From Thermococcus sp. (GTDB taxonomy: Archaea; Methanobacteriota_B; Thermococci; Thermococcales; Thermococcaceae), in contig NZ_JALVAO010000016.1 of NCBI RefSeq assembly GCF_027011145.1, forward strand, positions 1 to 52,349: a DNA stretch of 52,349 nt, in the 5' to 3' direction. A program made the translations under genes and the position numbers. The notes beneath the pieces were generated by a model. It saw nothing but the letters and a program-made list of their open reading frames with translations. It did not search any database and was not told the origin of the DNA. Position 1 is the stretch's first letter, and each line of letters opens with the position of its first letter. This document shows, one piece after another, positions 37,014 through 46,141 of the stretch.

Positions 37014-37102
37014 GTTCTCACCGAAACTTAAATAAGGATTGAAGCTCAAAAACTATTCGAGACCTTAATGGCTTAGCGATAACTATAACGGTGGTGCTTA
37101 AA

Positions 37103-38551
37103 GTGGCAGAGGATATAGAGGCGAAAATACGTCGTTTGAGGGAGCTCGGGAAGGTAACGGCTGAACCCGAGAGCCCTCCGGTTAAACCACCGACGGCTTC
37201 ACCGAAGAAGCCACCGCGCAGACCGCGCTCAATCAGTAGTATACGCGAGAGGGAGAGGCGTAAGAGAATTCTAATTGGCGCGTCTATTCTGATCATTATC
37301 ATTTTGATTATATCTGTTGGTGCTTACTCTTATCTCCAGAGCAGAAGTGCGAATGAGCTAAAGAACCTCCGCAACAAAAAGATTAACGAAGTCAACTATT
37401 ACTTCTCCCATTATAATTTCTCCAATAAGGAATGTGCCCAAAAGGTAATTCAGATTAGAAGCCTGCTCCTCCAGAAAATTCAGAATGCCAATAGTGTTAG
37501 TGAACTCAATTCAATAAACGTTAAGACATACTTTGATAAGGCAGTTCAGGTTTATCAGGAGTGTGTAAAAGAACAGGAAAAATTAGCATATGAAAAGAAG
37601 CTGAATCAGACTAAACAGGCCAAGATTCAGGCAATCAAGATGGCATTCCAGCCACTTCTTTCAATGCCCCTTCCTGATAGCCTCCGGGCGAAAGTAATCT
37701 CAGCTATGAAGACCTTGGAGGAGAAAGTGCAAAACGCCAAAACCATCGAAGAGGTAAACTCCATAAATCCCGACCCATATCTGCTGTCCCTCTGGAGGGA
37801 CTACTACCTCTGGAAGATTGACAATCTCCCTGGCAACGATGTCATACTTGAGAAAGATGGAAACAAACAGCTCGTATCTAAGGCCGAAGCCAAGTCAATT
37901 CTGAGTACTATAACGAGCTATACAGAGTTGCTACAGTACAAGGTCTACAAGGTTCAGTACGTTGAGATTGCCCTCGTCCTTCCAAGGGACAGAATTGCTG
38001 GAGGATTCCTTAAGCCGGGAGATGCTGTTATGTTCTTTGCAAAAAACAATACCAAAGGATCTTATCGTGAAATAGTTAATCAGGGCTATGTAGAACTCGT
38101 CCTTCTTCCGACCAATGCGGGCCAGATATCTGTGAGTGAGTCCCAAACACAAACGAGTTCAAGCACATCTTCAGCGTCAACAACTTACAATGAAAACCAT
38201 GCGTCGACTTACAATCCGGGAGATTTCCAGTACTCCAACGGAACTACAGTTTCAGATACTTACTCTAACTCCCAGACTTCTACACAAAGTTCCTCAGCAA
38301 GTTATTCCTACAATGTTAACCTAGCAGAGATTCTTAAAGCGATAGCCGCAGGAAAAATACAAGCTAGTGATGAAGTTAAGCAGGCTCTTCAAAGCTACGG
38401 TTGGAAAGTTATGAGCTTAGAACAGTCATCGGATATGTTGGTTCTTCCCCCAAACACTGAGCTCCTTATAATAGTTAAGGTTCCATCAATTTTCGTCCCA
38501 GATATACTCCAAAATCAGCAGTATCTCTATGTAGCGAAGATTTCGACGTGA
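37103..38551 (+). CDS. DUF515 protein, CpaB-like candidate of a Tad-type locus
   Basis: A 482-residue protein: a Pro/Arg-rich inner segment (about 1-55), one membrane helix (RILIGASILIIIILIISVGA), then an outer part with coiled coils (about 80-225), a conserved domain and a Ser/Thr/Gln/Asn-rich stretch (about 345-405). It belongs to the Thermococcales family DUF515. The outer domain contains VEIALVLPRDRIAGGFLKPG followed by DAV, which resembles the SAF domain of the Flp-pilus protein CpaB/RcpC; both have one N-terminal helix before it. This likeness is my inference. GTG 37103 is preferred over 37091 because GGTGGT lies seven bases before it. It is the first of five genes in the locus. Confidence 0.8.
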   Translation: MAEDIEAKIRRLRELGKVTAEPESPPVKPPTASPKKPPRRPRSISSIRERERRKRILIGASILIIIILIISVGAYSYLQSRSANELKNLRNKKINEVNYYFSHYNFSNKECAQKVIQIRSLLLQKIQNANSVSELNSINVKTYFDKAVQVYQECVKEQEKLAYEKKLNQTKQAKIQAIKMAFQPLLSMPLPDSLRAKVISAMKTLEEKVQNAKTIEEVNSINPDPYLLSLWRDYYLWKIDNLPGNDVILEKDGNKQLVSKAEAKSILSTITSYTELLQYKVYKVQYVEIALVLPRDRIAGGFLKPGDAVMFFAKNNTKGSYREIVNQGYVELVLLPTNAGQISVSESQTQTSSSTSSASTTYNENHASTYNPGDFQYSNGTTVSDTYSNSQTSTQSSSASYSYNVNLAEILKAIAAGKIQASDEVKQALQSYGWKVMSLEQSSDMLVLPPNTELLIIVKVPSIFVPDILQNQQYLYVAKIST

Positions 38552-38561
38552 GGTGGTGAAG

Positions 38562-39590
38562 ATGAAAAAAGTCCTTTCCATTCTTTTAATGTTAATTTTA
38601 TTGGTTTCATTTTCAGCATTCACACTAGCTCAGCAGTATACCCTCCCGGGATCTCTTCCAGGAGGGATTGTCTATAACAACATTGGGCTTAGCGGTGAAA
38701 TAATGTTGAACATTAATGTTACGCTTGTTAACACTGCCCCTTATCCAAAATATGTTCTAGTCAATCCCCGGTATGATTTTAGGGTTCTTCGAGGAAATGG
38801 AAGCGAATACTTCTACAACTACAGGACATCTACCGGGGCTCTTGAGAGAGTCGTATCTAGAGAGCTCCTTTCAAAATCTGTAAACTACTTTGTTGGTTTC
38901 TGGCTAGCTCCTTATGAAACCGTTGTTGTAAACTTCAAGATCACTAAGAATTCATCGTATTATGTTCCTCTGCTAGATTTTAAATCAGCATGTGGTGATA
39001 TAGGCAAACTTACAAGCCTTACCTATGAAAACGGCACTTTGGTAAGTGCTGTTGTTAACAACAACGGTGGGCTTGATAAATTGATATGTGGTTCAATTTA
39101 TCCGCAACTCATAAACAAACCAATATTCCTCAGCATTCATTCGATGTTTCCCATCTTGGACAAGAATATCCGTGTGATAAAGTATGATGGATTTGTAGAC
39201 TTTAGAATTACAAATATTCCTAACATGAACAGCACGGATAAGATGTTTCATGTGTTCTTTGCTGTGGTTCAACCAGTTATCTTTCTAAATGGGAAGACCT
39301 ATGATTACAGGCCAAACTTCACAATGACATATCAGGATTACCTCAAGAAATTCGTGTGGGAATATTCGGGAGTTGGTAGCCCTCAAGTAAAGCCTGTTAA
39401 TTCAACAACTCCCAAGACAAATCTCTTTAAACTTACCGATAGACTTCTCTCGGGCATCAAAGTTAGTTCTCCACATAGGATTAGTCCGAAATCTTATCAT
39501 AGTCCCAATTTCCCAGTATGGGTTGTGTTTATGGGAGAGAAGATTGATATAACCTATAGAATTAGCTGGAATAATGACTCTGGGCGGTGA
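38562..39590 (+). CDS. Secreted protein of the Tad-type locus, unknown function
   Basis: A 342-residue protein with a clear Sec signal peptide (MKKVLSILLMLILLVSFSAF, cut probably after LAQ) and no further membrane helix. It has at least eight N-glycosylation sequons (for example NVT, NGS, NSS, NMNS, NSTT), so it is probably glycosylated outside the cell. The fold seems beta-rich. It starts 10 bases after the DUF515 gene with GGTGGT as binding site and ends 6 bases before the secretion ATPase, so a structural role in the same machine is likely. Confidence 0.78.
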   Translation: MKKVLSILLMLILLVSFSAFTLAQQYTLPGSLPGGIVYNNIGLSGEIMLNINVTLVNTAPYPKYVLVNPRYDFRVLRGNGSEYFYNYRTSTGALERVVSRELLSKSVNYFVGFWLAPYETVVVNFKITKNSSYYVPLLDFKSACGDIGKLTSLTYENGTLVSAVVNNNGGLDKLICGSIYPQLINKPIFLSIHSMFPILDKNIRVIKYDGFVDFRITNIPNMNSTDKMFHVFFAVVQPVIFLNGKTYDYRPNFTMTYQDYLKKFVWEYSGVGSPQVKPVNSTTPKTNLFKLTDRLLSGIKVSSPHRISPKSYHSPNFPVWVVFMGEKIDITYRISWNNDSGR

Positions 39591-39596
39591 GAGTTC

Positions 39597-41663
39597 GTGT
39601 TTGGAGAGAAAAAGAAAAAAGATGAGGGATTTTCCTGGATAGATGAAATACTTTCGGGAAATGAAGATCCCCTTGAGAAGGTTCTCAAAAAGAAAGAGGA
39701 AGAGCCACCGCTTCCCCTATCAACCTCGGGGGGTAGTTTAGAGGAGATACTGGGTAGTGTTTCAAAAGAAGATAATGACCAAAAAACTCAGGAGAGTAGT
39801 GTGGACGTCCTAAGTTCAATACTCAGTGAAAAGAATGATATATCTGAGAAAAAGATATCCAAAAAAACTCCAGAGCCTATGCCCTCCGAAACTGGAGCAG
39901 ATTTGTTAAGCTCTCTACTTGGAAGTGCTTCAAACTCATCTATCTCAAAACCCAAGTCAGACTCTATGCCATCAAAATCTTCCTCAAGCTTGACAGCACT
40001 CCCTTCTTCTGAAGCCAAGGAAACTGGTGTTGATTTTCTTAGTGAGATCCTTTCAAAACCTGAGCCCTCGTCATCTACACAATCTCGTTCGTCACTAGGT
40101 TTCTCTCCGAATTTGCAGGATATTCTCGGAACGTCTTCACCCGATGAACCTTCTTTCGTTGCTAGAGGCAAAGTTCTTGATGCCTATGGGAATGTTCGTA
40201 TACTTAAGGTCAAAGGTGAACCTGTCCCAATTTATGAAGTTCGTTTTCCAAAGCTCAGTAAGGAAGAACAACAGCTCTTTAAGCGCATAAAAGAAAGGGC
40301 TATAACAGAAATTCAGATAGATCCAACTACAATACCTAACCCTGAGGAGCGCAGGAGAATATTCCTCAATGCTGTAAAAAAGATGATCAAAGAAGAAGCT
40401 CCCCATTATTCTGAGGGAAGGATAGAAGTTCTTGCAGACATGATAGTTCAGCAAATGATAGGTTATGGCAAGCTAGACCCACTTGTGAGAGATGACAATT
40501 TGGAAGAAATTATGGTTATTGGAACAAACAGACCAGTTTATGTGTGGCATAGACGCTTCAACATGTGTAAAACTAACATTGTTTTCCCTGAGGAAAAAGA
40601 AATACTCAATATTATCGAGAGAATAGCTAGAGAGGTTGGAAGGAGAATAGACCAGCAAAGTCCACTCCTTGATGCACGTCTACCTGATGGAAGCCGTGTT
40701 AATGCTACAATACCTCCCATTAGTCTTGATGGACCAACAATAACGATACGTAAATTTAAAAAGGATCCATTAACCGTAATTGATCTAATCAAATATGGAA
40801 CCATAAACTCTGAGATAGCAGCTTTATTTTGGGTGTTTGTTGATGGATTGGGTGTTAAACCCGCCAATGTTTTAGTTGCGGGAGGTACTGGCTCGGGCAA
40901 AACAACTACTCTAAACTCTCTAGCAATGTTTATACCGCCGAGTGAGCGTGTTATAAGCATTGAAGATACTGCGGAACTTCAGTTGCCTGTTGAACACTGG
41001 ATAAGACTCGAAACTAGACCACCAAACCTTGAAGGCAAGGGCGAGGTTACAATGGATGACCTCGTCAAGAACACACTCCGTATGCGTCCCGACAGGATTA
41101 TCGTCGGTGAGGTTCGTGGACCGGAGGCTAGAACGATGTTTACTGCAATGAACACGGGCCACGATGGATGTATGGGAACAATCCACGCCAACAGTGCTCG
41201 TGAGACAATAGTCCGATTAGAAAGTCCTCCTATGAACGTACCTAGAATTATGATACCAGCCTTAGATATAATTATCATGCAGGTTCGTTTCCACAGTAGA
41301 AAGAAAGGCACTATAAGACGAGTCACCGAAATAGCAGAGGTATCTGGGATAGAAGGAGAAAGCATACAGCTAAACAAGCTCTATAAGTATGATCCTGCCA
41401 AGGACGAGCTCGTTCCAACAGGTGTCCCTAGTAGAACTCTTAACACTCTGGCTCATCATACTGGAATGAGCATGAGAGAAATAGAACTCGAAATTGAAAA
41501 GAGGAAATTGATACTCGAATGGATGATTGAAAATGGGATCAGAAGCATAGACAAAGTTGGCTATTACATCAGACAGTTCTATATCGATGAGGAGGGTCTT
41601 ATGAAAAGAATAGCTGCTGAAAGCAGTATTGAGACCAGTAAACAAATTCAACAACTAATGTGA
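39597..41663 (+). CDS. Type II/IV secretion system ATPase (TadA/GspE/CpaF family)
   Basis: A 688-residue hexameric secretion ATPase that would power pilus assembly or secretion. The first 195 residues are a low-complexity Ser/Glu/Lys linker with repeats like ETGVDFLSEILS and ETGADLLSSLLG, suggesting short docking motifs. The catalytic part has the N-terminal domain (IGYGKLDPLVRDDNLEEIMV), Walker A AGGTGSGKTTTL (about 428-439), the Asp box, Walker B RPDRIIVGEVRGPEA (about 499-513) and the His box GCMGTIHANSARE. The start is GTG with GGTGA six bases before it. Two platform genes follow. Confidence 0.92.
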   Translation: MFGEKKKKDEGFSWIDEILSGNEDPLEKVLKKKEEEPPLPLSTSGGSLEEILGSVSKEDNDQKTQESSVDVLSSILSEKNDISEKKISKKTPEPMPSETGADLLSSLLGSASNSSISKPKSDSMPSKSSSSLTALPSSEAKETGVDFLSEILSKPEPSSSTQSRSSLGFSPNLQDILGTSSPDEPSFVARGKVLDAYGNVRILKVKGEPVPIYEVRFPKLSKEEQQLFKRIKERAITEIQIDPTTIPNPEERRRIFLNAVKKMIKEEAPHYSEGRIEVLADMIVQQMIGYGKLDPLVRDDNLEEIMVIGTNRPVYVWHRRFNMCKTNIVFPEEKEILNIIERIAREVGRRIDQQSPLLDARLPDGSRVNATIPPISLDGPTITIRKFKKDPLTVIDLIKYGTINSEIAALFWVFVDGLGVKPANVLVAGGTGSGKTTTLNSLAMFIPPSERVISIEDTAELQLPVEHWIRLETRPPNLEGKGEVTMDDLVKNTLRMRPDRIIVGEVRGPEARTMFTAMNTGHDGCMGTIHANSARETIVRLESPPMNVPRIMIPALDIIIMQVRFHSRKKGTIRRVTEIAEVSGIEGESIQLNKLYKYDPAKDELVPTGVPSRTLNTLAHHTGMSMREIELEIEKRKLILEWMIENGIRSIDKVGYYIRQFYIDEEGLMKRIAAESSIETSKQIQQLM

Positions 41664-41672
41664 GGTGTTGCT

Positions 41673-42725
41673 ATGGGTCTTATTGAATTCCTTGAAAAAC
41701 TCGGTGGCAAAACAATTGAGGTCACAGAAAAGCCCATCAGGCGTGTTCCTAGAGGTAAGTCTATCCAAGAAAGACTTCGAGCCCTTAAGGAACTTCAAAA
41801 GGAGGTTGAAGAAGAGAGAATTCAGAGCGAAAGAGAAAAGCTCGTTGAGGAAGTATTAGAGTGGAGAAAAGAGGAGATAAGTAAGCCATTTTCAGATAGA
41901 CTTGCTGAGGCTATATTGAAATATTTTAGAGGGCCCGTTGAGGCATTAACTAATTCAATTAAAGGTCTTGATCAGGATCTTTACCGGGCGAGTATATTCA
42001 TGCCCAAGGAAAAATACGTTGCCTACATGCTTGGTGTTGCCATGATATCTGGCTTTTTTGGTTTTGTTTTTGCATACCTGCTTTACATTCCCATAGACAC
42101 TTCATTGCTCATTGGACTTCTTGCGTTTATTGGAGGATTTTTCTATATGCGTCAGTATCCTAAGATGGTGTGGAAGAGAAGGGTTACCGAAGTAGAGAGA
42201 ACTCTTCCATATGCACTTCGTCACATGGCATCACTTCTTAGCGCGGGCGTTGGTATAGCAGAAGCCATACTTTCTGTCGCAAAAGCTGATTATGGTGTTC
42301 TTTCAGAAGAATTTGAGTTGATCCTTAGAGACATGAGAACAGGTTCATCATTTGAAGACGCACTAACAAAATTTGAAGAAAAAATGGCTTCTGAAAACGT
42401 TAGTAGAGTTGTTAAACAAATTTTAAGAGCAGTTAAGTTTGGTGGAAATCTTGCAGAGATACTCTACAAGCTTGCGGAGGATTTCTCCTTTGAATACCGG
42501 ATGAAACTTGTTGAATATGTTCAAAAGATAAATGGTATATCCTTTATCTACATGTTTATGACCATCGTTATGCCTACTATGTTTGTTGTTGGCGTCCTTG
42601 CCGGATCAATAATGGCTCGCCAATTAATATTCAACGTCCAAACCTTGGCTGTCATACTAATCTTTGCTTTCCCCGCACTGTCCCTTATAATAATCAATAT
42701 GATAAAGAAGGCTGAGCCGAGGTGA
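41673..42725 (+). CDS. Type II secretion/Tad platform membrane protein (GspF/TadB-like)
   Basis: A 350-residue protein with a cytoplasmic charged N terminus (to about 100), paired membrane helices at about 115-160, a GspF domain (MASLLSAGVGIAEAILSVAK, then ILRAVKFGGNLAEILYKLAE) and two helices near the C terminus. It would sit at the base of the machine and couple ATP hydrolysis to movement of subunits. ATG 41673 follows GGTGTTG. The next gene overlaps or abuts it (GTGA), typical of TadB-TadC pairs. Confidence 0.9.
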   Translation: MGLIEFLEKLGGKTIEVTEKPIRRVPRGKSIQERLRALKELQKEVEEERIQSEREKLVEEVLEWRKEEISKPFSDRLAEAILKYFRGPVEALTNSIKGLDQDLYRASIFMPKEKYVAYMLGVAMISGFFGFVFAYLLYIPIDTSLLIGLLAFIGGFFYMRQYPKMVWKRRVTEVERTLPYALRHMASLLSAGVGIAEAILSVAKADYGVLSEEFELILRDMRTGSSFEDALTKFEEKMASENVSRVVKQILRAVKFGGNLAEILYKLAEDFSFEYRMKLVEYVQKINGISFIYMFMTIVMPTMFVVGVLAGSIMARQLIFNVQTLAVILIFAFPALSLIIINMIKKAEPR

Positions 42726-42730
42726 GACTA

Positions 42731-43642
42731 TTGGCCCGGAGAGGCGTATCCACAATATTAATTGCAGTGGTTGAGAAGCTTGTTCCTGAAAAATATCTGA
42801 AGAGATATGAACTTTATATCTATTCGGCCGGGATAAACTTTCTAGCTGCTGAATATATAGTGATATCTCTCTTGGTTGGAATTATATTAAGTCTTATTGT
42901 TTCATTGATAGTAAATGGTTTTTATGGCTTTGTTGCTTTCCTTGTCAGCTTTATAGGAATGGCTTTTGTTTATCCTTACTGGAGAACAATTAGAAAGATT
43001 GAAGACATGGAACGAAACTTGCCAGATGCCTTCTTCTACTTAGCCAGCTCTTTAAGAGCGGGTATCTCTTTTTCAGAGGCACTGGAAGAACTCACCACTG
43101 CTAAATTTGGTGCCCTTACTGAAGAGTTCAAGAAAACAGTTGCAGAGATAAAAAAAGGCCGTTCAACAGTTGATGCTCTTAGAGCCTTTGCGATACGAAA
43201 CAGAAAATCACAGGTAATCTACCGCTCAATGATGATTATCATCGAGGCCCTTGAAAGAGGTGCGCCAATGAGTGATGTCTTGGTCTTTGTTGGTAATGAC
43301 GTTCGTGAAATCCTGAGAATAAAGCAGGAAAGGAAAGCTTCTACAGGAATGCAGGCTATGTTCTTTATAGTGACAAGTGGCTTTGTTGGTCCCCTTATTC
43401 TTGGGATTGTATCCAAGGTAATGACGTCAATGGCAGGTGCTGGGACGGGAGTGAATATCCCTGTCCAGTCAATAATGAACATACTATTTCTTTTTGTTAT
43501 AGTTCAAGCCTTCGTGTCGGGACTTGGAATAGGTGTAATAAGAGAAGGAAGCTACAGCTCCGGTCTGAAGTATGCTGCTCTACTTATTGCTATGGGCTCA
43601 GTTATCTTCAAGGGTGCTACCCTCATCAACATCGGCTTCTGA
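42731..43642 (+). CDS. Type II secretion/Tad platform membrane protein (GspF/TadC-like)
   Basis: A 303-residue relative of the preceding gene with the same layout: helices at about 35-75, a GspF domain (LASSLRAGISFSEALEELTT, then MIIIEALERGAPMSDVLVFV) and helices near the end. The TTG at 42731 is preferred because GGTGA lies five bases before it; the GTG at 42722 inside the stop of the previous gene is the alternative. Its 3' end overlaps the convergent FKBP gene by 45 bases. No prepilin peptidase or pilin gene follows in the window. Confidence 0.88.
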   Translation: MARRGVSTILIAVVEKLVPEKYLKRYELYIYSAGINFLAAEYIVISLLVGIILSLIVSLIVNGFYGFVAFLVSFIGMAFVYPYWRTIRKIEDMERNLPDAFFYLASSLRAGISFSEALEELTTAKFGALTEEFKKTVAEIKKGRSTVDALRAFAIRNRKSQVIYRSMMIIIEALERGAPMSDVLVFVGNDVREILRIKQERKASTGMQAMFFIVTSGFVGPLILGIVSKVMTSMAGAGTGVNIPVQSIMNILFLFVIVQAFVSGLGIGVIREGSYSSGLKYAALLIAMGSVIFKGATLINIGF

Positions 43643-44796: not shown

Positions 44797-45720
44797 ATGT
44801 CCCTTAGAGCCAAGTTTATTGTGTTGCTGATAATAACGGTAATTTTGATGTCTTTTCTAATGAACAGTTATTCCTTCTCAGCTCCGCACAAGAAGAACCC
44901 TATAGCTCTCGATTTTTTGACAATCATAGTATTTGTTGGTGTTTTTGTTGGCCTGTTAATTTTTATAGTTCTAGCTCTCTATGTAAAGGATATACCTGGA
45001 GCAGAAAGTAGAGTTAATCTTAAACTTGGAGATGCAGTGTCAATTAGAGATATTGCTCTATTTTTGTTTTACAACTCCCTCCTAAGTACGTCCTGGGTTA
45101 TTATGATGATGAGGATAACAGCAAGTATTAGAAACAATAACAATGTTACCAATGTCTCAATTTACAGAGGTAACAACACAACGCTTTTAAATAATTCAAA
45201 TAATTCCTCTGTTGTTCCCCCTGTGAGACCTCTTATTGAAGGGGGAGGAAATGGTAATTATACGACAAAATTTTTAAACAATCCAATTGCAACGCACCTG
45301 TGGCTAGTTTTTCTTTTACCGATTTTCCTTGGACTGGTTTATCTTGGCTATTATTACTATCGTCTTGGTCAAGAAGAACTTAAAAGAAAGAGAAAAATTG
45401 AGAAGGCAATTGAATTCGATAGGAAGCTGAACGAGTTCGGCCTTGAAAGGTTCTCAAACCCAAGGGAGGCTATAGTTGAGATATACAAGAACGCCGTCCT
45501 ATGGTTAGAAGGCCTTGGAATTCCTTATAGGGAGAGCTGGACTCACTGGGAGCATGCAGAGCACGTTAAATACATGCACGAGGCCTTTGTTGAATTGGCG
45601 AAGCTCTTCGAGAAGGCAAAATACGCCCCCGAAAGAATTGAGTGGAGAGATGCTGAGAAAGCTCTTGAGATTTATAACAGACTGAGGGGGAAAGCCCGTG
45701 AGATTGCCAAAATGGATTGA
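44797..45720 (+). CDS. Membrane protein with DUF4129 domain
   Basis: A 307-residue protein with helices at about 8-28, 42-63, 83-106 and 170-192, an outer loop (about 108-165) very rich in Asn with several N-glycosylation sequons, and a cytoplasmic C-terminal DUF4129 domain (NPREAIVEIYKNAVLWLEGL, YAPERIEWRDAEKALEIYNR). DUF4129 proteins typically accompany MoxR and DUF58 genes, as here. There is no ribosome binding site; the TATA-like CTTTTAAAC lies about 35 bases upstream. It overlaps the next gene by 23 bases. Confidence 0.82.
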   Translation: MSLRAKFIVLLIITVILMSFLMNSYSFSAPHKKNPIALDFLTIIVFVGVFVGLLIFIVLALYVKDIPGAESRVNLKLGDAVSIRDIALFLFYNSLLSTSWVIMMMRITASIRNNNNVTNVSIYRGNNTTLLNNSNNSSVVPPVRPLIEGGGNGNYTTKFLNNPIATHLWLVFLLPIFLGLVYLGYYYYRLGQEELKRKRKIEKAIEFDRKLNEFGLERFSNPREAIVEIYKNAVLWLEGLGIPYRESWTHWEHAEHVKYMHEAFVELAKLFEKAKYAPERIEWRDAEKALEIYNRLRGKAREIAKMD

Positions 45721-46141
45721 AACGTTCAAGGGCAGGCTAATGGTTGCTGGGTTCTTAATTTTTCTCTCAGTCGTTCCTGGAGAGTACTACATCAGGTGGA
45801 TTGCAGTATTCAGTTTGGCAGTGTTCCTTGGAATTGTACTATTAAACGAGGATGTTCACATTCAACAAGCTAGAATGAGGAATAATCCTGCTACTAATCC
45901 TCTTAAACCTGATTTTGAGAGAGCTTTAGTAATTGTTAAACGAGCTCAAAAGGGCACGAGAAAGCTTGCCGAGGAAGAGCTCCTCGAGATACTCTATACT
46001 CTCTACGATGGAAAATACAGCTATCAAGAGTTACGTTCAAATCCTCCCCCTGCTTTGAAGGCTTTTTACTCTTCCCCCGATCCCTACGAGGGCCTAAAGC
46101 AGGCCCTAAAAATTTTGGAGGCTGAGCTAAATGAAGATTGA
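45698..46141 (+). CDS. Small membrane protein of the MoxR operon
   Basis: A 147-residue protein with two close N-terminal helices (about 14-50) and a helical cytoplasmic domain of about 90 residues (FERALVIVKRAQKGTRKLAE, DPYEGLKQALKILEAELNED). No known family. The GTG start lies 11 bases after a G-rich run, overlaps the DUF4129 gene, and its end overlaps the MoxR gene by 11 bases, so it is an obligate part of this operon. Confidence 0.75.
   Translation: MRLPKWIETFKGRLMVAGFLIFLSVVPGEYYIRWIAVFSLAVFLGIVLLNEDVHIQQARMRNNPATNPLKPDFERALVIVKRAQKGTRKLAEEELLEILYTLYDGKYSYQELRSNPPPALKAFYSSPDPYEGLKQALKILEAELNED

Follow-up and report, generated by a model that had tools for sequence, protein, structure and literature searches.

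Which machine do the five genes at positions 37091-43642 of a 52,349-nucleotide stretch of Thermococcus DNA (the whole of which is called the window) serve, and what does the DUF515 protein encoded by the first of them do in it? ORF calling in the window placed five co-directional open reading frames there, all on the + strand and almost gapless. The first encodes the DUF515 protein (37091..38551, 486 aa; PF04415, 511 bits), for which 37103, the start given in the original prediction, is a possible alternative to 37091. Next come a secreted beta-rich protein with a Sec-type N-terminal signal and no Pfam family, here called gene 2 (38553..39590, 345 aa), a TadA-like secretion/assembly ATPase of the clade-1 or EpdL type (39597..41663, 688 aa; T2SSE, 172.6 bits), and two inner-membrane platform proteins (41673..42725, of the EpdJ/K or TadB/C type, and 42722..43642), each with a single T2SSF domain (86.7 and 60.3 bits in Pfam, respectively). 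The predicted order of DUF515, secreted protein, ATPase and two platform proteins was thus borne out by the ORFs and their Pfam matches. A bacterial promoter scan found promoters only at the level of shuffled sequences, the method being unsuited to archaea and its terminators not interpretable. Downstream lie genes for a DUF4129 protein and a 147-aa protein (44797-46141); they begin where the DNA is AT-rich and appear to be an operon of their own.

Within the stretches fetched, all 20 Thermococcaceae loci showed the same order (gene 2 was unrecognised in one, and the stretch stops before the last gene in three), which is therefore not due to chance. The co-conservation of DUF515 with the ATPase and platform genes, on which the original prediction had staked itself, is therefore kept in Thermococcaceae. 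Methanococci also have the two genes DUF515 and gene 2 next to each other, in 19 of 20 loci, but there the pair goes with eppA and pilins, and the ATPase is encoded elsewhere in the genome. Gene 2 is a near-constant neighbour of DUF515. By genome search, DUF515 is present in 92 of the 115 genomes of the phylum; only two of the listed genomes from the window's family lack it, and no listed genome from another family has it. In the Methanococci group, 34 of 36 genomes have it. In several Thermococcaceae loci (L135, L136, L138 and L143) DUF515 is split over two frames, although L138 possibly just has an alternative start, and stops or frameshifts were seen in three genomes (G028, G033 and G090). 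Such two-frame copies may represent occasional loss, phase-variable inactivation or sequencing errors.

As predicted, the locus is more AT-rich than its neighbours (GC 0.413, against 0.505 in the rest of the window), and is near the minimum among all 6.5-kb windows. However, the GC of the same locus in relatives is only about 0-5 points under that of its flanks; low GC is not a general property of this locus and carries little meaning. Horizontal acquisition, considered because of the AT-richness, was rejected on this ground, and also because the minor-pilin cluster of the same genome is about equally AT-rich.

The ATPase and platform genes belong to a pilus class already known from thermophilic and methanogenic archaea. 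Over its core, the ATPase shares 57-60% identity with methanococcal clade-1 ATPases and 54% with a bacterial TadA (a pSymA copy), as compared with 42% for the archaellum ATPase of the same genome, and a tree separated clade-1 from archaellum-type ATPases with a support of 100/99 at a split where long branches meet. The archaellum platform of this genome has two domains in one gene, whereas here each platform gene has one. Two single-domain platform genes are a hallmark of Epd and Tad systems, and Denise et al. derived Tad from an Epd-like system (PMC6668835). Makarova et al. described the archaeal clade-1 system (PMC4858521), of which EpdL, EpdJ and EpdK of M. maripaludis are experimentally studied members (PMC4371748). 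Thus, the locus is Tad-like as predicted, with a TadA-type ATPase and a split platform of the TadB/TadC type. The proposal of an undescribed archaeal Tad-type machine does not hold: the ATPase and the platform pair correspond to the EpdLJK set of clade 1 (PMC4858521, PMC6668835, PMC4371748), and other loci of the same genome encode EppA and the pilins in trans. The five genes are the motor cluster, or base, of an archaeal type IV pilus of the EppA-dependent (Epd) clade 1, which is the nearest relative of Tad.

Many of the clade-1 ATPase ORFs in Thermococcaceae (L125-L144) are 800-1210 aa long, and many methanococcal clade-1 ATPase matches break at one common place, which is consistent with inteins in the ATP-binding core; inteins in these ATPases have been noted (PMC4390880), and the window copy has none. 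One Methanococci genome (G132:C1:1057416-1074776) has four copies of the clade-1 ATPase at a spacing of exactly 5405 bases, either a tandem amplification of the motor genes or an assembly artefact.

The absence of pilin and prepilin peptidase genes from the locus agrees with the original prediction; no match to a class III prepilin or an A24 peptidase was found on this contig. Elsewhere in the genome, EppA is encoded at L047:10170-11387(-) (L047 being G000:C68:22000-38000; Arc_PepC, 107.7 bits; cut-off, 23.4), and directly upstream of it is a 54-aa pilin ORF starting MRRAQTAIEYLFMLAAVLVLVLIAARTIF; EppA and this abutting short ORF are a major-pilin/EppA pair. The pair lies a few kb from the archaellum operon. 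In total, the genome has four major-pilin-like genes of 54-63 aa for short QxAIEY pilins, the other three being on contig 50 (two) and contig 39 (one). Furthermore, contig 63 carries a minor-pilin cluster with CetZ and a cyclase-like gene (L046:4050-15639), and such a cluster with FtsZ-like and cyclase genes has been described for Thermococci (PMC4858521). A DUF2341 tip-adhesin-like protein, reported for clade 1 in general (PMC4858521), was not matched in this genome (96% complete, 70 contigs), with M. jannaschii as a positive control. DUF2341 is not a core motor component, and we do not treat its absence as decisive for clade-1 membership. The minor-pilin cluster also encodes a 918-aa prepilin-like protein, part of which resembles a beta-solenoid of the bactofilin type (L046, G000:C63, 7288-10044(-); Pfam Bactofilin, 27.5 bits, slightly below the cut-off), which is possibly a pilus-tip protein in place of DUF2341.

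What, then, is DUF515? The protein has a cytoplasmic N-terminus (about residues 1-55), one transmembrane helix (56-85), a helical stalk (about 86-245) and an outer domain like that of RcpC/CpaB (about 280-352 plus 453-486), which is split by a low-confidence loop rich in Ser and Thr and by an insert of two helices. The one-helix topology claimed originally was found, and gene 2 has a single N-terminal signal segment. In the structure model, a helix spans residues 54-107 and the C-terminal outer domain is of mixed confidence, with very low confidence in the long Ser/Thr-rich stretch. The stalk of the window protein contains two related repeats (score 69; maximum among shuffles, 50).

The structure prediction that had been proposed for comparison with CpaB was run, and the template-free model was searched blind with Foldseek against 350,542 PDB chains. 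RcpC was the first hit by E-value (9gzr_B) and again the fourth (9gzr_A), both with a probability of 0.96; the E-values were modest (0.044 and 0.24), and all other listed hits had a probability of 0.35 or less. The Pfam profile of the RcpC domain (PF16976) weakly matches some DUF515 members at the expected place (best E, 0.0027), the best score in Thermococcaceae being 18.1 bits against a curated cut-off of 28.8, and the DUF515 of the window genome itself had no match to it. Nevertheless, in genome-wide searches with this profile the best match was inside DUF515 in all seven of the Thermococcaceae genomes having any match. In a profile comparison with CpaB, the trimmed domain scored 35 with the Thermococcaceae rows and 30.5 with all rows, while the maximum for decoys (60 column-shuffled versions of the full set) was 19 and unrelated profiles used as a control had probabilities of 0.3-0.4. 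The hhalign probability between the whole family and CpaB was 13.7, and the methanococcal rows alone gave no profile signal to CpaB. Without intermediates, the direct signal between DUF515 and CpaB is weak.

Such intermediates were found. Among 297 archaeal genomes searched with RcpC, 21 had a match, nine of them over the curated cut-off, and in 19 of the 20 match stretches that were fetched the protein was also a relative of DUF515 (E from 1e-23 to 4e-40). In several of these bridging loci a relative of gene 2 comes next. Of the bridging proteins scanned, the two from L214 and L220 pass both curated Pfam cut-offs, those of DUF515 and RcpC, and the profile of the bridging group matched DUF515 with a probability of 99.9 and CpaB with a probability of 91.3. 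In the three-way alignment, the common motif series is a beta strand, 'aGGf-PGD-VdvY' and a second strand. Through these intermediates, DUF515 is very probably a distant homologue of CpaB/RcpC. The original prediction had seen a possible archaeal counterpart of CpaB in DUF515 because of a stretch like the SAF domain. The relationship to CpaB/RcpC stands, but the shared part is the RcpC (D2) domain: Pfam profiles found no SAF-like stretch in the outer domain, as SAF (PF08666) was not one of the listed Pfam matches of DUF515 proteins and was over the cut-off in two control CpaBs. The outer end of DUF515 is probably an RcpC domain, not SAF. A search confined largely to open-access literature turned up no archaeal paper that names DUF515.

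The position of DUF515 in Methanococci, together with gene 2 inside the eppA-pilin operon, connects it to genetic data. Of 20 Methanococci DUF515 loci, 15 contain EppA, and a class III pilin was found just upstream in 15 and downstream in 18. All seven published transposon sites (in eppA, epdA, epdF and MMJJ_08260) fit the corresponding genes of one such locus (L121) with a single offset, so that by position DUF515 is the counterpart of M. maripaludis EpdF and gene 2 that of MMJJ_08260. Nair et al. (2014, in Arch Microbiol) reportedly found that the operon genes except mmp0235 and mmp0238 are all needed for pili. In M. maripaludis, a screen for mutants defective in natural transformation, a pilus-dependent trait, yielded insertions in epdF and in the gene after it, and transformation is impaired when epdF is disrupted (PMC10133366). 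As for gene 2 itself, the model (pLDDT 84) is beta-rich, and no PDB relative was found by fold search. Its identification as CpaB, the N-domain of RcpA or a protein of known fold was rejected, because neither profiles nor the PDB gave a match; no relation to the RcpA N-domain was seen.

RcpC is a ring-forming alignment protein, and its solved structure shows a 12-fold ring made by D2 (PMC12307814). DUF515/EpdF is a probable alignment-complex protein of archaea. We propose that the five genes supply an Epd-like pilus with its motor and base, including an RcpC-type ring of DUF515 on a helical stalk and no secretin, a reading to which we give a rough probability of 0.62. The ATPase and split platform would act with the short major pilins, minor pilins and EppA encoded elsewhere in the genome. 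DUF515 would be anchored in the membrane by its single helix and raised on the stalk, so that its RcpC-type domain could form an oligomeric ring above the platform, through which the thin pilus would pass as it crosses the space below the S-layer. The ring would thus have the same role as that of RcpC in bacteria, but with a helical stalk for SAF and without a secretin, and the secreted gene 2 protein might cap or anchor it on the S-layer side. The ring function on its own is somewhat more likely than not.

To our knowledge, archaea of this group have no outer membrane and no secretin, the known partner of RcpC, which counts against the ring model. The DUF515 protein might instead be an RcpC homologue that regulates the platform and ATPase or anchors them, for example as an S-layer tether, and passes no pilus. 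Besides the lack of a known secretin partner, the N-terminus ahead of the transmembrane helix, which is basic and conserved, would suit such a role, as would the Ser/Thr-rich loop and long stalk, both unlike RcpC. However, the part that is conserved with RcpC is precisely the former of the 12-fold ring (PMC12307814), and DUF515 is placed genetically among assembly genes; we therefore consider a regulator or anchor rather unlikely. That the locus encodes a type II-like protein secretion system and not a pilus machine is improbable: its ATPase and platform families are common to secretion systems and it lacks a pilin, but piliation of M. maripaludis depends on the orthologous EpdL, EpdJ and EpdK (PMC4371748), the genome of the window also encodes EppA together with major and minor pilins, and the archaellum is the only other ATPase-platform set found there. 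Finally, convergence or chance, with DUF515 an unrelated stalked surface protein, is equally improbable and already disfavoured, since, in spite of the weak direct profile similarity for most members and the weak Pfam matches to many families that occur in the DUF515 protein, the intermediates exceed both curated cut-offs, the three-way alignment is in register, the RcpC match is specific genome-wide and the structural first hit is independent.

The link of DUF515/EpdF to RcpC points to a likely function for a family that so far has only an 'unknown' label and occurs in almost every Thermococcaceae and Methanococci genome searched, and it adds one more shared component for the proposed archaeal origin of Tad. 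It also suggests an archaeal origin for the collar through which the pilus is guided on leaving the cell. We give even odds to the further idea that the Tad alignment ring is an archaeal invention predating the secretin, in which a CpaB-type ring of DUF515/EpdF on its helical stalk would lead the pilus across the S-layer space; Tad would have received the ring from an Epd-like ancestor and gained SAF and the secretin later. The link to RcpC also makes it possible to test, in genetically tractable archaea, in what order Tad gained its envelope parts.

Among known systems, the bridging loci, which match both DUF515 and RcpC, can be compared with the Methanobacteriales 'Flp pilus assembly protein RcpC/CpaB' (OG0001177; PMC11915815). 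In these loci a secreted gene related to, or in place of, gene 2 follows, but, unlike in the window, the stalk is shorter, a class E sortase comes next and no motor gene is nearby. Some of the loci L214-L232 are assigned to Methanobacteriales by the neighbouring genes that they have in common with cluster C of that study (PMC11915815). In the Methanobacteriales-like loci L214-L224, the genes after DUF515/RcpC and the secreted protein encode the class E sortase (PF04203, 64.5 bits) and a dihydroneopterin aldolase (DHNA); the sortase link hints that the pilus apparatus is covalently attached to the cell wall. The M. maripaludis Epd pilus (PMC4858521, PMC4371748) shares with the present system an orthologous ATPase, two single-domain platform proteins, EppA, short major pilins and minor pilins, and the DUF515 and secreted genes match the position of epdF and MMJJ_08260; however, these two genes are joined to the motor genes in Thermococcaceae and to eppA and minor pilins in Methanococci. 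As compared with RcpC/CpaB (PDB 9gzr; PMC12307814), the helical stalk of DUF515 replaces SAF/D1, a long Ser/Thr-rich loop and a two-helix insert lie inside the RcpC domain, and the C-terminal beta-hairpin that RcpC needs with the secretin was not identified, but the single N-terminal transmembrane helix and, probably, the ring-forming RcpC (D2) domain are common to both. Unlike in the bacterial Tad (type IVc) pilus, EppA here replaces TadV, the CpaB-like protein is without SAF, and there is no outer membrane, so that a secretin is not expected; the two systems nevertheless have in common a TadA-type ATPase, a split TadB/TadC platform, short Flp-like pilins and, very probably, a CpaB/RcpC homologue.
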